Assembly: GCA_020343535.1 (NCBI GenBank)
Contig: CP070799.1
Span: 1,964,019 to 1,997,446 of the forward strand
From: Nitrospinaceae bacterium
GTDB lineage: Bacteria > Nitrospinota > Nitrospinia > Nitrospinales > VA-1
Length of the DNA: 33,428 bases
Direction of reading: 5' to 3'
Shown: positions 9,191 to 19,473 of the stretch, piece by piece
How positions within the stretch are numbered: the stretch's first letter is position 1
Layout: each line of letters starts with the position of its first letter
Program-made: the position numbers and the translations under genes
Notes under the pieces: model-generated
What the model was told of the DNA's origin: nothing
The model's database searches: none
Seen by the model: the letters and a program-made list of their open reading frames with translations, nothing else

Positions 9191-9853
9191 TTTCTGAAAA
9201 ATCGTAAGTTGTGAGGCCACCCCGGAATAATTGATGGTGGGGATGGGACGCTGCTCAAAAAGCCCAGGATAGGAAGATTGAGGACTGGGAGCAGGACCGG
9301 TCGGTTCCTTTTTAATGATGACCTGCCCGCCAGATTGCAAAAGGGGTTCCCCCCAGAAAAGGCAATCCGCAAGAGGGGCTACGGCTTTGAAAAGAGCGTA
9401 TTGAAAACGTCCCTTATAAGGAAAAGAAAGACTTTCGGCCCGGCTATGAACCACCGTAATTCCAGGCAGTTTGAGCTGCCGAATCACCTCCTGCAAAAAG
9501 CTCACTCTTTTCCGCTGCGCCTCCACTAGAACAAAGGCCCGCTCGGGGAAAGCAAGCTTGAGGGGAATGCCGGGAAACCCCGCACCACTGCCGACATCGA
9601 CGATCTCTCCGGGTTCCACCAACGCTCGGGAATATAACAACGAATCAAAAACATGCCGGGTGAGCAGAGCCACTGGGTCCCGGTCAGCAGAAAGATTGAA
9701 ACGTTGATTCCACTTGCCAAGAAGAGAAAGATAAGCCTGGATCCCAACGACCGTCGCCTGCTCATCACGCAAAACAGGAAGGCCAATCCGCGGATCGGAA
9801 ATAATTTCTGAAGCAAGGGCGGAAAGGTCCATTCCCAATTCAGACGTTGACAC
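9179..9853 (-). CDS. rsmG: 16S rRNA (guanine527-N7)-methyltransferase
   Basis: This 224-residue Rossmann-fold methyltransferase modifies G527 of 16S rRNA. The SAM-binding motif VDVGSGAGFPGIPL is at 85-98, preceded by the family helix KWNQRFNLSADRDP at 47-60 and the RHVFDSLLY segment. RsmG commonly sits beside parA/parB near oriC, as here. The GTG at 9851-9853 overlaps the end of etfA, suggesting translational coupling; an ATG seven codons later (9832) is an alternative. The last codons and stop contain a parS site, so the DNA carries two functions. Confidence 0.93.
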   Translation of the reverse strand: MSTSELGMDLSALASEIISDPRIGLPVLRDEQATVVGIQAYLSLLGKWNQRFNLSADRDPVALLTRHVFDSLLYSRALVEPGEIVDVGSGAGFPGIPLKLAFPERAFVLVEAQRKRVSFLQEVIRQLKLPGITVVHSRAESLSFPYKGRFQYALFKAVAPLADCLFWGEPLLQSGGQVIIKKEPTGPAPSPQSSYPGLFEQRPIPTINYSGVASQLTIFQKCST

Positions 9854-10838
9854 TCAAAACCCGCTTAAATTCCTCGGTCAGTAGAGGCAGAGCGGTCAGA
9901 ACATCGGCGACGATGCCATAATCCGCGAATGAAAAAATCGCCGCATGGGGATCTTTATTAATGGCTACGATGCACTTGGAGGAAGACATGCCGGCAAGAT
10001 GCTGCACCGCGCCGGAAATTCCGCAGGCGATGTAAAGGTCGGGGGAAATGGTCCGGCCGGTCTGTCCCACCTGGTTGGAATAGGGACGCCAGCCATTATC
10101 AACCACCGGCCGGCTCGCCCCCACCGTGCCGCCAAGAACACAGGCTAACTCCTCCAGGAGATGAAAATTCGCAGGCCCCTGCATGCCAAGACCGCCAGAA
10201 ACAACAACCCGCGCTTCGGTAATATCCAGGGCGTCACCCGCCTCCCGCACAATTTCCTTAACGCGCATGGCGAGGGGAGGTTCCTCCAAATTTATATCGA
10301 GTGTTTCCACCGATCCGGTTCTCGAAGCATCGGGCCCTGGGCCGCGAAATACATTGGGGCGCACGGTCATGATCCGGGGTTTGTCGGCGCTGAAATTCAA
10401 GGTGGCGATGGCTTTCCCGGCATTGACCGGCCGCTGCACAGAAAGCTGCGAATCCATTTGCAGGGCAATGCAATCGGTGGCGAGGCCGGTGTCAAGCGAA
10501 GCGGCGAGGGCCGGAGCTAGTTCTTTTCCGTGCAAGGTGGCGGCAAGCACCACCGCTTGGGGTGCACGGAACCGCAAAAATGGCACCAGGGCAGCCAGCC
10601 ACGCTCCCACCGTATAAGGGGTGAGCGCTTCATTTTTTAAGACGATCACCCGGTCCGCGCCGTGCTGGATCAGAGTTTGACCGGTATCCTCCGGCAAATT
10701 GCCTGGGTAAACGGCGGTGACGCTGCCAGCCGCGGCCAAAGCCAAGGAGCGCGCCGCGAACAGGGCCTCCAGGCTGACGGGTTTGACGCCGTGCTCCTGC
10801 GGATCGATGATAACCACAAAATCATTGGAATAATCCAT
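9840..10838 (-). CDS. etfA: Electron transfer flavoprotein alpha subunit
   Basis: This 332-residue FAD-binding subunit of ETF passes electrons between flavin dehydrogenases and the quinone pool or another acceptor. The C-terminal FAD domain is clear: [18 protein letters not shown], then [40 protein letters not shown] and [18 protein letters not shown]. The ATG at 10836-10838 is preferred over the GTG five codons upstream because a GAGAG stretch precedes it. Its partner etfB lies 3.6 kb upstream on the same strand instead of adjacent, separated by a peptidase gene and a pseudogene. It overlaps rsmG by 14 bases. Confidence 0.93.
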
Positions 10839-10928
10839 GCGGGATTCTCTCACACCATAAAAGTCGTGCTGAAATATTAACCACTGGGGCGAAATTCGTC
10901 AACCCGACAAAACCGCAGGCTATATGGC

Positions 10929-11097: not shown

Positions 11098-13236
11098 CTA
11101 TTTTCTCTTCTTGCCATTACCTCCACGGGGACCGCCGGAGCCACCCCCATCGGTATAGGAAACGGCGGCCGGGGCCTCGGAAACATGACCCGCCTGATCG
11201 GTGGAATACACCGTATAATCATTCGCCCCGGTGCTGGAATAGTTGCTGTCGGCGAATTTTAGCTCCGCAACCTGCCCAACCAGCACCCCATTCCGGTATA
11301 TCCTGTATGACACCACCCCTGACCCCGGCGAGGCATCGACCGCCGCCGTCCATTCCAGAAGAACCGACTTTTGGCCCTTCACCTTCCTATGCGTCGCGGT
11401 CAAATCCGAGGGGCTTGCAGGCGCCTGGCTGTCGAGCATCAATTCCGCTTGGCCGCTGCCGTTATGAACCCCTACACTTAAATCATTGGCCTTCACCGTC
11501 AGGGTAAAATTACTGTCCGCCACCGCCTGGGGCGTCAGGGAAAGATTAATACCCGTCGACTGGCCGGGAGCAAGGTTCATACTGGTGGCGCTCAGGTTGT
11601 GGGAGAATCCCGAAGTCACGTTGCTGCCGCTGAAAGCCACCACCGAATCCAACGCAAGATTAAAGGTCGAGTTCTCACAACCCTGGGAATCATTATTGGT
11701 CACCGACATGGTGTAGTTGGCGGTCTGGCCGTTGGCGGCAAGCAACTGGGTGGCGGGTCCCACCGCCACCGACGGGGCGCTCCTCGCGCAATTGACAAAA
11801 TTGATGTCCAGCGTGACGGAGTTCGCGTCGTTGCCAAGCTGGGTGAGGGTGAGGCCGTTGGCATTATCCACGTACTGGCTATTGTTGCCGTTATCCATGA
11901 TTTTAACTTCATAGGAGCGGTTGCCGGTTTCGCTGGCGTGATGAATCGAAGCTCCGTTGGCATATTTAGAAGGCATGCCCGCATCCAGGCCGACCTGCCG
12001 CCGGTAGGAAATGTAATACATTTCATTGGTGTCGGTCTTATCAATTTTAAGGATTTGCGGATGCAAGTTCACTGTCGGATCGCTGCCCAAAGGAGCAATC
12101 TGGTAGGTGCCGCTGGCAAGCACGGTCACGACCGTGTCGGCAAGATCCGGCGCATCGTACCAGCCGATCTGGTCCACATGCACGCTGTTGACCTTGCGTT
12201 TGTAACAACAGTAACCCATTATCCCGGAAGTATCGCCGTATTCCGAATCCCAGACGCCGTCGAGGTTAGGATCGGTACCGGAATGGTGCCAGCCCAGGTT
12301 ATGCCCAAGTTCATGGGCATAGGCGACCGTGTCGTTGCGTGTACTCCAGGAAAGCTTGACCGAGCTTCCTCCATAGCTGCCCACCTGACCCAGGGCCAGC
12401 CAGGAGCAATCGGAAATCGAGGAAGGCGGAACGAGATAAATCCGGTTATGGTAGGACCCAAGATTGACGCCGGCGGTGCTGGCGGCTGAATCGGCGGCGC
12501 TGGCAATGGAATAATAGGGGCAACCTGAAAAATAGGGGATTTCAACCAATACCACGTTGTTGCCCATGGTGGCAGGAAAGGACAGCTGATCGAAGGAAGA
12601 CTCGCGGTACATGCTGTCGACCGAGTAATTGTTATTGAACATCTGCGCTTCAACCTGGGAAATATGGCCGCTGTTATAATAAAGCGGCGCCGATTCATCG
12701 CCAGGCGTGCCAGGGTCGTCCGTCGACGGATAGCTGGCTTCCCCGGGGGAGTCCGGCATATTTACGATCATAACAATGGCATGATGAATCCCCGTTCCAG
12801 CCTCGCTGACATCCGTTTCGGCCCCCTCGAAAGAACCGGTTTCCTGCAGGCCGGAAACGATTTCACTCACATGAAATTTCCGATCGGCTTTGCGCCCGCG
12901 AAGGGTCACCTGCATACCCGAACGGAGAGACTGGGGAGGTTCGCGGTCAAAGACCAGTTCGGTACGATCACCGGTCACCTTATCCTTGATCCAATAAACC
13001 ATCCGCGATTTTCCCTTATCGAATTCATCGATATGGAGGACATCCACCTCACCTTCCACTGACACCCGGTTGGGTTTTCCGGCGGCGGATGAAATTGCGG
13101 GAAGAATCAAAATGACAGCGATGCATAGCGCTGAGACAGACTTCCACAAAATGCCATTGGGGCCACGCGAACCTCGCGAGACCCTGCTCGATCCAGACTG
13201 AATCAGCCTTGATTCCATCCCCTGAACCTCATCCAT
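11098..13236 (-). CDS. Secreted M11 (gametolysin-like) zinc metallopeptidase with C-terminal fibronectin-type domain
   Basis: About 712 residues from the ATG at 13236, which has GGGAG seven bases upstream (another ATG is 11 codons further up). Numbering below is from that upper ATG. A hydrophobic secretion signal spans about 43-63 (SVSALCIAVILILPAISSAA). A zinc-binding motif HELGHNLGWHH lies at 319-329, followed by EYGD and a Met-turn GIMGY at 349-353. This order matches peptidase family M11/gametolysin, known for cell-wall glycoprotein degradation in algae and also found in some bacteria. The middle holds beta-rich segments resembling extracellular adhesion modules (about 500-600). A fibronectin type III-like domain follows (about 612-700), then a Gly-rich basic tail. 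Asn/Ser-rich composition supports export. It lies between etfB and etfA and is not metabolically related to them. Substrate is unknown. Confidence 0.8.
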   Translation of the reverse strand: MDEVQGMESRLIQSGSSRVSRGSRGPNGILWKSVSALCIAVILILPAISSAAGKPNRVSVEGEVDVLHIDEFDKGKSRMVYWIKDKVTGDRTELVFDREPPQSLRSGMQVTLRGRKADRKFHVSEIVSGLQETGSFEGAETDVSEAGTGIHHAIVMIVNMPDSPGEASYPSTDDPGTPGDESAPLYYNSGHISQVEAQMFNNNYSVDSMYRESSFDQLSFPATMGNNVVLVEIPYFSGCPYYSIASAADSAASTAGVNLGSYHNRIYLVPPSSISDCSWLALGQVGSYGGSSVKLSWSTRNDTVAYAHELGHNLGWHHSGTDPNLDGVWDSEYGDTSGIMGYCCYKRKVNSVHVDQIGWYDAPDLADTVVTVLASGTYQIAPLGSDPTVNLHPQILKIDKTDTNEMYYISYRRQVGLDAGMPSKYANGASIHHASETGNRSYEVKIMDNGNNSQYVDNANGLTLTQLGNDANSVTLDINFVNCARSAPSVAVGPATQLLAANGQTANYTMSVTNNDSQGCENSTFNLALDSVVAFSGSNVTSGFSHNLSATSMNLAPGQSTGINLSLTPQAVADSNFTLTVKANDLSVGVHNGSGQAELMLDSQAPASPSDLTATHRKVKGQKSVLLEWTAAVDASPGSGVVSYRIYRNGVLVGQVAELKFADSNYSSTGANDYTVYSTDQAGHVSEAPAAVSYTDGGGSGGPRGGNGKKRK

Positions 13237-13269
13237 AGATGGACTCCCAGAATAGTGATAAAAAAACAT

Positions 13270-13792
13270 CCGATCTTAAAAGCACTTTCACTTAATCCAA
13301 ACAAGATGGATCACATAATGTGCAATAATTCGCACATCCGATAATGGAAGGGCGAATATAGTTTAATCACTATTCAATGGAATAAAGGTCACGGTTTTGT
13401 CACGAACGCAAAAGAACCGGATCCTCAAGCCATTTCGTGATCGCAAAATAGGACCCTTCTTGAACCAAGCGGGAGACCGAGGGCAAACAACAACCACCCG
13501 GCAAGATAAGAGGCCATAATACAATGCTGGGGGAGGACTAAACAGATTGATAAATAAAAATTTTCAGCTATTCGGGCAGAAATCGCGCCATCCCTTGGGG
13601 CTAAAATTTCTGGGTCAGTAGCGCGACTCTCGGGCAAGTGCTGGCAGGAGCTTGAGGCCGCGGAGCCTATAGGGGAGGATCTTATTTCATCTAAAAGGCT
13701 CTGATAAGCAAAAGGGTTTGTTCCATTATTCGGTCGAAAGAATACGATTCGCGAGCAAACCTTAAAGACCTAAGGAAAACATTAAGGGAAAA
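13270..13792. other. Non-coding stretch upstream of the M11 peptidase gene
   Basis: About 520 bases without a believable gene. The part nearest the peptidase is AT-rich and contains an inverted repeat (listed separately). A 70-codon minus-strand frame at 13425-13637 shows no recognisable motif and no ribosome binding site. It may be further decayed coding DNA belonging to the neighbouring pseudogene region. Confidence 0.5.
13318..13337. repeat. Inverted repeat ATGTGC-N8-GCACAT (possible operator)
   Basis: Perfect six-base arms separated by eight AT-rich bases, located 50-100 bases upstream of the M11 peptidase gene in a promoter-like AT-rich region. It could bind a dimeric regulator. No regulator is identified. 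Confidence 0.35.
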
Positions 13793-14416
13793 TCAGCCGA
13801 GCAATTCGGGAAAGGATAGAAGCACAATATTGGCATCCGCAAGCGTCTTGGAATCACAGGGAGGTACCACCAGGCCAGTATGTTAGGGTGACCCCCTCGG
13901 TCCATCACCCGACATGGGTATTCGGGTTGATTACATCCAGATCGAAGTCTTCCCGGATGACGGTAATTCTACTTGGAGGAACCTCGGCATCGACCAATTT
14001 ATTGAACGGCGTGAGCGTGGCGAGAAGAGGCGTGCCCCCAAGGCGATACCTTGTGGATTTTTTATGGCTGTGATGGCCTGCCGACAGCGCACAAGGAAAA
14101 CGCCGACGCCCTTGATGAAAACACAGGGACGGGCTGCGGGAACCGTGACTATTAATTATATCGAAACCCGGGCGCCTAGATTCATTAAGAATCCTGAGGC
14201 TCAGGCCCGCTCGCCAGAGCCCCAATATCGCGGGTGGCTCCCGCTTGGAAAGGGTTCATTCTTCCGCTTTTTTTAAAAAGCAGGCTATCCGGGTGACACA
14301 TGATCCAGCCCGCGTGCCGAGGGTGGTTGAGCCACTCACATTCACTCGCATTGCGGCAGGATGCGGAATTCCTAGCCGCCCCAGTTCACGCTGCATTCCG
14401 TATGCACGATCTCTAC
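13793..14416 (-). pseudogene. Decayed family-4 glycosyltransferase gene (nonsense, frameshifts, internal deletion)
   Basis: Pieces of a GT4-type glycosyltransferase appear in order on the minus strand but in different frames. First is VEIVHTECSVNWGG, a TAG at 14372-14374, then EFRILPQCE and a TGA at 14342-14344; this is the usual H-x-E-x-S-x-x-W-G-G-Q-E-x-R-I-L N-terminus. A piece LNHPRHAGWIMCHPDSLLF follows in a second frame. A third frame holds GFDIINSHGSRS, HHSHKKSTR and LVDAEVPPSRITVIREDFDL, matching the GT4 linker region. A last piece GLVVPPCDSKTLADANIVLL matches the C-terminal domain motif GLLVPPGDxxALA. About 130 residues expected between the last two pieces are missing. The gene cannot be functional. 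It sits between etfB and the M11 gene. Confidence 0.75.
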
Positions 14417-14488: not shown

Positions 14489-15280
14489 CTAAATAACCCT
14501 GTCTTCTTTCAACCGGCTCACCAGGGTTGCGACACTCTCATTCAGGGGACCATGTAAAATCTGACCTTTTTTCCTTTCCGGGGGAAGAGAAAGGCCGATG
14601 CCCTCTACGCGATTCCTTGAAATACCCATCGTTTCGGTACGAAACATCAGGTCCTGGGCGGTGAGAATCTCTACCGGTTTCTTCTTTGCGGCCATGATGC
14701 CCTTGAGGGAAGGGAGCCTCGGTATATTGAGACCCTTCTGGCAGGTCACTAAAAGAGGAAGAGCGGATTCCAGCACTTCATTGCCGCCTTCAATCTGACG
14801 GGTGATTTCGGCCTTGTTTTTATCTTCGGACAGTTTGAGGCCGGTGACGACCGTGGCAAAGGGGAGACCCAGCAAAACAGCAAGACTGGGGCCCACCTGG
14901 GCCATGTCGTCGTCCACCGCCTGGCGGCCGCAAAGGATAAGGTCGTAAGGAAGACTCTTGATGACCAGGGCAAGGACGTGCGCGACACCTAGGTTGTCCA
15001 GACCTTCAAAAGCAGGATCCTCAAGGTGAATGGCCCGATCCACCCCCATGGCCAGAGCCGTTTTAAGAGCGTCCTTAAAGCTTTCGGGACCGAGGCTGAT
15101 GGCGGTAACCTGAGTGCCTGAGGCGGGGTCGCTCTCGCGAATACGAATGGCTTCTTCCAGGGCGAATTCATCGTACGGATTGACCACGCGGGAGCTGCCC
15201 TGGGCGTCGACCTTGCCGTCAACGATGCGTATCCTCGCGGAGGTGTCGATAACTTGCTTGATGCAAACGATGATATGCAC
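14489..15280 (-). CDS. etfB: Electron transfer flavoprotein beta subunit
   Basis: This 263-residue protein is the usual length for ETF beta, which binds AMP or FAD and pairs with EtfA. It begins HIIVCIKQVIDTS after a GTG start at 15278-15280 (the frame runs 46 codons further upstream without homology). Family motifs include VVNPYDEFALEEAIRI, the nucleotide-loop region LALGM-type TALAMGVDRAIHLED, and the PYDLILCGRQAVDDDMAQVGPSLAVLLGLP signature region (split here for length). Its partner etfA is 3.6 kb downstream on the same strand rather than adjacent. Confidence 0.93.
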   Translation of the reverse strand: MHIIVCIKQVIDTSARIRIVDGKVDAQGSSRVVNPYDEFALEEAIRIRESDPASGTQVTAISLGPESFKDALKTALAMGVDRAIHLEDPAFEGLDNLGVAHVLALVIKSLPYDLILCGRQAVDDDMAQVGPSLAVLLGLPFATVVTGLKLSEDKNKAEITRQIEGGNEVLESALPLLVTCQKGLNIPRLPSLKGIMAAKKKPVEILTAQDLMFRTETMGISRNRVEGIGLSLPPERKKGQILHGPLNESVATLVSRLKEDRVI

Positions 15281-15430
15281 GGAAAACCCGTCGAGGTTTT
15301 TAATTAACTTAATTTCTGCTATTATTGCACTGTTACCATAGAATGGAAACCCACGGATCAGATTTTTTCTGCGGCGCCATGGCCCTGGCCGATTCGCCCC
15401 CACCCCTCTTCCCAACACTCCGACGAATCC

Positions 15431-17339: not shown

Positions 17340-18094
17340 TTATTCAGATCCCATTTCACGTGAATCATAGTGAAGCAGGGTGCCGATATCGATGAACACC
17401 GTGTATTTGCCGCCGATCTTCATGACGGCTTTGAAAACCAGCGCCGGTCCTTTTCCCGTTGTTCGGGGGAGTCGATGTTTTCGTCGTCTTCCAGATCGTC
17501 GCAGATAATGAGGTCCGGCCATCGATTCCCGAAACGGGCGCCGCGCAACCGCTTTCGCTTTCCCCAGCAGCTGACGCGCACGCCGTTGGAGGTTTCTATC
17601 TTGCCCACCTTCCAGGTGCGCCCGCGTCCGCAGACCCGGGGAAAATCTTCCAGCAACCTCTCATTGGCCACAAGTTCGGCCTTGAGGGATTCGAGAAAAT
17701 CCTCCGCCTGCTCGCTGGTGTCGGAGAGGATGCCGATGAAACGGCGATGGTCCGCCGCAATGCACCAGAGAGGAAGGATCAGCGTCGTCAAGGTGGATTT
17801 GGCGTGGCCGCGGGGCGCCGCCTGAACTTCCCGGGAGCCGATGCCGCTATCCTTGGCGGCAAGAATCCGCTTTTCATAGCTGGCGAGAAGATGCTCGTGC
17901 ATGGCCGAGCTTTTTTCACTCTGGTGATGCGGGAAATAGGTGCGGGCGAAATAGCTTAGGTCGGTTTTGGCCCGGCAGCGGCGAGCATCTTGTTCTTCCT
18001 TGCAGGTTTTCGAGAAAGGGGAGACGGCGGTTTTGACCAATTGGAGAATTTCTCCGTATCCCCGGGAAAGCTTAGTCCTTTGGAACTCAACCAT
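17340..18094 (-). pseudogene. Phage terminase large subunit, frameshifted and truncated (Mu gp28-like)
   Basis: The intact part from the ATG at 18094 (AAGGAG just upstream) reads through a JTYFPHH-type N-terminal segment (LSYFARTYFPHH). A Walker A-like PRGHAKSTL follows, then LWCIAADHRRFIGILSDTSEQAEDFL and Walker B LIICDDLEDDE, typical of terminase large-subunit ATPases that pump DNA into proheads. The frame stops at 17420 after REKDRRWFSKPS. The expected continuation, FKAVMKIGGKYTVFIDIGTLLHYDS, is present in the next frame (a one-base loss near 17432-17437). That continuation itself stops at 17340 after about 160 bases. The nuclease domain is absent. It follows a 102-residue gene, with a short spacer. 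Confidence 0.75.
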
Positions 18095-18101
18095 TGCTCC
18101 T

Positions 18102-18410
18102 TCACTTTTTTCCAATTTCGTGAAGCGATCGGCCCACCAGCTCCGGGGCCCGGGTTTCACCGTTATCCATCAGGATCGACACCACGTTCTTTAGGGTGTC
18201 GATAAGCAGCCGTTCGGGTTCCAGCGCCTGCGATTGGACCCTAATCTTAAGAATCTCAACGAGTTTACTGACATACGTCAGATACACGCGGTGAGCCTGC
18301 AAATTATCGGGGCAATCCTTATGTTGTCGCTTCAGGGCGCTCTTTTGGCCGAGAAGCTCCTTTTCAAGGATTTCCAGAGCCCGCCCGGCGGTCTCATTCC
18401 CTGGGGTCAT
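18102..18410 (-). CDS. Phage-associated small helical protein (position of Mu gp26/gp27)
   Basis: This 102-residue helical, charged protein begins MTPGNETAGRALEILEKELL and contains a long amphipathic middle (AHRVYLTYVSKLVEILKIRV). I do not recognise the family with certainty. It sits directly upstream of the terminase gene, where Mu-like phages encode small proteins (gp26/gp27, DUF1804/DUF3486) thought to act as terminase small subunits. Its start overlaps the end of the preceding coding frame by 17 bases, a typical phage arrangement. Confidence 0.5.
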   Translation of the reverse strand: MTPGNETAGRALEILEKELLGQKSALKRQHKDCPDNLQAHRVYLTYVSKLVEILKIRVQSQALEPERLLIDTLKNVVSILMDNGETRAPELVGRSLHEIGKK

Positions 18411-19113: not shown

Positions 19114-19473
19114 TCAATAGGTCCAAATGGACGGTTTTACTTTGGTCGTGTCCAGGTCCGCATGCACGAAGGTTTTGCCGATGTCGATGCGCTGGAATCC
19201 CGCTTCCATCAGCCGGGCGATGAGGATGTAGCGTGACAAGCTGAGGGTACACTCCAAATCCACCGCTAGGCCCGCAAGATGGGCGCTGTTCGGAACGCCA
19301 CCCTGGCGCCGGTTATGCTCGGGACAGCGGAACCCGGAGGTCAGGCGCAGGGGTCCAAAATAGTCTCTAACTTTTTGAAATTTTGTTACTAATTCTAGGC
19401 TGACCGCGTCCTGGCCGCAGCCGCAGCGGCAGGCGAATTCTGCCCTGGAAAAATTGCGGCTTAAATCGCCCAT
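19114..19473 (-). CDS. Peptidase M15 (D-Ala-D-Ala carboxypeptidase-like) phage endolysin
   Basis: This 119-residue protein has the M15_3 pattern. SGFRCPEHN lies at 46-54, SAHLAGLAVDLE (zinc ligands His65 and Asp72) at 63-74, and a third ligand in FVHADLD (His104). A Cys-rich CRCGCG segment lies near the N-terminus. Such single-domain enzymes cut peptide cross-links in peptidoglycan and serve as lysis endolysins in Mu-like and other phages. It is followed on the same strand by the small putative holin. The enzyme appears intact although the surrounding module is decayed. The start ATG is at 19471-19473, with a weak ribosome binding site. Confidence 0.85.
   Translation of the reverse strand: MGDLSRNFSRAEFACRCGCGQDAVSLELVTKFQKVRDYFGPLRLTSGFRCPEHNRRQGGVPNSAHLAGLAVDLECTLSLSRYILIARLMEAGFQRIDIGKTFVHADLDTTKVKPSIWTY

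Follow-up and report, generated by a model that had tools for sequence, protein, structure and literature searches.

Remains of a decayed GT4 glycosyltransferase gene in the etfB-etfA gap of a Nitrospinaceae bacterium

The etf locus of this Nitrospinaceae bacterium contains a 1.2-kb stretch that looks empty, and the question is what occupies it. The window analysed here, 33,428 nucleotides in length, corresponds to positions 1964019-1997446 of a 2.53-Mb genome, which forms a single contig and is estimated to be 86.46% complete. In the order of transcription of the minus strand, etfB (14489-15418, Pfam PF01012, with orthologues in 19 relatives) is followed by the stretch in question, then by a gene of a 723-aa M11-type metallopeptidase (11098-13269, minus strand, PF05548) and by etfA (9840-10853, minus strand, PF01012 and PF00766). 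All three genes are intact. An initial annotation had proposed that the stretch holds the remains of a GT4 family glycosyltransferase gene, recognisable on the minus strand as pieces in the right order but in three frames.

The homology was first expressed as a stitched read-through query composed of the N-terminal pieces. It matched PF13439 with an E-value of 2.5e-5, which is under the cut-off of that family; when the genome was searched in six frames with PF00534, the stretch was not listed at all. Since the frames of the stitched query had been picked by eye, a frameshift-tolerant profile alignment was written, which selects the frames by itself. With a profile of 20 members the stretch scored 125.0 (1500 dinucleotide shuffles: mean 45.2, maximum 87), while other stretches of the same length in the window, on both strands, reached at most 62; with a profile of 106 members it scored 153.6 (500 shuffles: mean 45, maximum 73). 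The members of the profiles were found via the stitched query, and the family was thus selected for resemblance; shuffled sequences and the genome's other GT4 genes served as guards against this. In single-protein comparisons, members of the WGGQE type reached z values of up to 18, whereas six of the seven other GT4 genes of this genome gave z below 1 and the seventh 2.9. Judged by sequence comparison, the relic is closer to the WGGQE-type GT4 subfamily than to other GT4 types. Its identity to intact members over aligned columns does not exceed 0.37, and the median among the intact members themselves is 0.37. Among named records, those with the closest full-length GT4 proteins are from Nitrospinota. 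In a tree the relic was placed beside a mostly Nitrospinota group (support 0.80, branch length 1.1), a placement too weak for use, given also that the alignment profile is biased that way.

The alignment is collinear from the N- to the C-terminus, covering profile columns 6-370 of 370, and bears out the proposed order of the pieces. In the three-frame translation of the minus strand, VEIVHTECSVNWGG*EFRILPQCE lies in frame one, HAGWIMCHPDSLLFKKSGRMN in frame two, LRILNESRRPGFDIINSHGS and PPSRITVIREDFDLDVINPN in frame three, and GLVVPPCDSKTLADANIVLL in frame one again. Seven pieces were each compared with the whole profile in a single frame without frameshifts, with 1000 shuffles apiece, and five of them were at or beyond the tail of the shuffles. 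The N-terminal piece VEIVHTECSVNWGG*EFRIL (14345-14416) scored 81.0 against a shuffle maximum of 42.4. The second piece, HAGWIMCHPDSLLFKKSGRMN (14240-14330), was surpassed in 4 of 1000 shuffles; for the third, LRILNESRRPGFDIINSHGS (14130-14215), this happened in 1 of 1000. Past the main internal loss, the piece TGLVVPPCDSKTLADANIVLLSFPEL (13796-13900) scored 73.2 (shuffle maximum 51.6), and a C-terminal piece missing from the initial annotation, RFARESYSFDRIMEQTLL.YQSLLDEIRS (13677-13770, tested as 13670-13770), scored 58.8 (maximum 54.6). The middle of the relic (13910-14128), including PPSRITVIREDFDLDVINPN, is plausible by eye and by position, but its two pieces, 13990-14128 and 13910-13990, are not significant alone; the latter is the region 'ITVI...NP' which had been assigned to GT4.

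The relic extends further than was thought. It had been placed at 13793-14416, where it is indeed found, but this end is too early: positions 13270-13945 taken by themselves reached a score of 111 with the full profile, where shuffles gave 69 at most, and the match continues to 13677, in the final columns of the family. The relic thus spans approximately 14416-13677 on the minus strand and accounts for most of the 1.2-kb gap.

Its lesions were traced as a single path over profile columns 6-370, in which long deletions were allowed cheaply; in the middle, where the match is weak, the precise placement of lesions varies with the chosen penalties. The path contains seven frame changes, where at least two frameshifts had been claimed, and further stops in unaligned insertions. 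The relic is 734 bp long versus approximately 1095 bp expected, so that on balance some 360 bp, about one third of the coding length, have gone. The internal loss lies between profile columns 92 and 307, where approximately 260 bp are left of the 645 bp or so expected, and this net loss of about 385 bp agrees well with the internal deletion of roughly 400 bases that had been suggested. Of the two nonsense codons reported, the TAG at 14374-14372, found where WGGQE has its invariant glutamine, stands. The TGA at 14344-14342 is present, but it coincides with a site where the alignment switches frame and is therefore not an independent lesion; the frameshift may have brought it about. One clear nonsense codon is left.

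A functional GT4 enzyme would be encoded by a single uninterrupted frame of some 370 codons, which the relic does not have; it carries lesions that are disabling by comparison with intact homologues and lies between intact flanks. The breaks might be errors of sequencing or assembly in a gene that is intact in the organism, as the genome is a single contig of 86.46% completeness, of the kind obtained in long-read assemblies with indel errors. This is most improbable: some seven changes of frame, one stop and the loss of about 360 bp are crowded into 740 bases, whereas the neighbouring genes run without interruption for up to 878 codons (etfB, the M11 gene and etfA, as well as the more distant gyrB and gyrA, are long unbroken frames), and the missing 360 bp are beyond the reach of point or single-base errors. 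Hardly any credence can be given to a real small gene at this place. Two short frames are open, 13905-14225 on the minus strand (106 aa) and 13914-14276 on the plus strand (120 aa), but the former has only a sub-threshold match to PF13439 (E-value of 0.016) that stems from the GT4 relic itself, and the latter matches no Pfam family and runs antisense over the relic. Nor is the DNA conserved, a search of 40 relatives with the relic stretch having returned only matches of chance size (26-32 bp). The stretch is, almost certainly, the decayed remnant of a WGGQE-type GT4 gene between intact genes, most likely without function. Neither of the two outcomes named in advance as refuting it, a lack of GT4 homology or an inconsistent order of the pieces, occurred, and the proposal of a decayed GT4 gene is upheld with a longer extent and a single clear nonsense codon.

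The initial annotation had suggested looking for an intact orthologue in close relatives. Twelve relatives have etfB and etfA on one contig, and none of them has an intact GT4 gene between the two. In ten of these the gap is 184-637 bp long; the other two have other genes there (L037:6478-8816 and L041:4846-9162), namely two ORFs which by eye resemble cytochrome bd subunits in genome G004, and a histidine kinase-like ORF with others in G032. The same 12 gaps were scanned for GT4 relics and no convincing one was found. A possible older relic in the gap of G005 (L046) scored 59 against a shuffle maximum of 61 (n=300) and was judged to be due to chance. As a GT4 gene lies between etfB and etfA in no relative examined, there is no evidence that such a gene has long belonged to the etf locus. 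Genome G001, of the same genus and 97% complete, has no ETF domain match at all, while etfB is present in most relatives.

The usual surroundings of the gene are different. The phylum set comprised 77 genomes, including that of the window, and among the 76 others, searched with the stitched query, intact GT4 members (free of internal stops and in most cases about 370-430 codons long) were found in 37, with a best E-value of 3.6e-13. In these relatives a second GT4 gene almost always follows the WGGQE gene and GT9 genes are often nearby. The gene is typically part of a glycosyltransferase cluster, whose product is probably LPS or a different surface polysaccharide. An intact WGGQE member is absent from both genomes of the genus (that of the window and G001); their matches belong to other GT4 types and fall chiefly within the C-terminal domain that these share. 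In G001 a GT9 gene, another GT4-type gene and a full second GT4 gene stand in a row beside a peptidase-like gene (L201:6966-10417), and the WGGQE gene is absent among them. Beyond the window, the stretches around the GT4 loci of its genome were read; there the second GT4 gene, again next to the peptidase-like gene, is reduced to its C-terminal third (L189:1488-1811, genome positions 1358457-1358801, plus strand), without the two further glycosyltransferase genes of G001. This truncated cluster looks like the result of a large deletion. Together with the relic it would record the erosion of a probable surface-polysaccharide pathway in one Nitrospinota lineage.

The GT4 gene would once have been functional in this lineage. 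A copy may have come to lie between etfB and etfA by a rearrangement or with acquired DNA such as the M11 gene, which has no comparable homologue in any other genome of the phylum and was probably acquired (gametolysin-type). The flanks of the relic showed no repeats that would indicate an insertion element. Selection on the copy would then have ended, and the frameshifts, at least one nonsense mutation and the net loss of about 360 bp seen today would have accumulated, with the flanking genes staying intact. The etfB-etfA gap may be a tolerant insertion site. It is doubtful that it is a recurrent landing site in the phylum and that the relic is horizontally transferred cargo which arrived with the protease and was then discarded.

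The position of the relic directly upstream of the M11 gene on the same strand, with a spacer of lower GC content between them (13270-13669, 46% GC), might suggest that it was co-opted, for instance to serve the protease gene as a leader or as regulatory DNA. This is quite improbable, as no sigma-70-like promoter was found in the region, its terminator-like sites are all weak, and it has no Rfam match. As far as its sequence tells, the decayed GT4 gene most likely yields no working enzyme and does nothing beyond filling the gap.

The relic resembles intact WGGQE-type genes (e.g. L078:667-1779, minus strand, and L056:1453-2607, plus strand) in being collinear with them over nearly the full length and in the WGGxE and C-terminal motifs, and differs from them in having no open frame, in the loss of about one third of the coding length and in its location between etfB and etfA instead of a glycosyltransferase cluster. 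For this type of gene the nearest NCBIfam model is TIGR03088, which is matched far below its cut-off. The relic is an ordinary bacterial pseudogene. The literature found concerns pseudogenes in general and none of it this locus. Pseudofinder detects intergenic bacterial pseudogenes (PMC9336565), and the relic is the same in kind as those, a fragment broken by frameshifts, a stop and deletions amid intact genes, with a decay deep enough to escape the six-frame PF00534 search, as had been foreseen for ordinary gene detection. The case illustrates that six-frame Pfam searches can overlook relics so decayed.

Elsewhere in the window, the 3-kb gap before dnaA contains a part of a phage terminase large subunit (17420-18160, minus strand; PHROG 38, E-value of 1.3e-42, with partial coverage of the profile) and a part of an M15-type endolysin (19114-19473, minus strand; PHROG 894, E-value of 2.5e-29), which together look like a prophage remnant.
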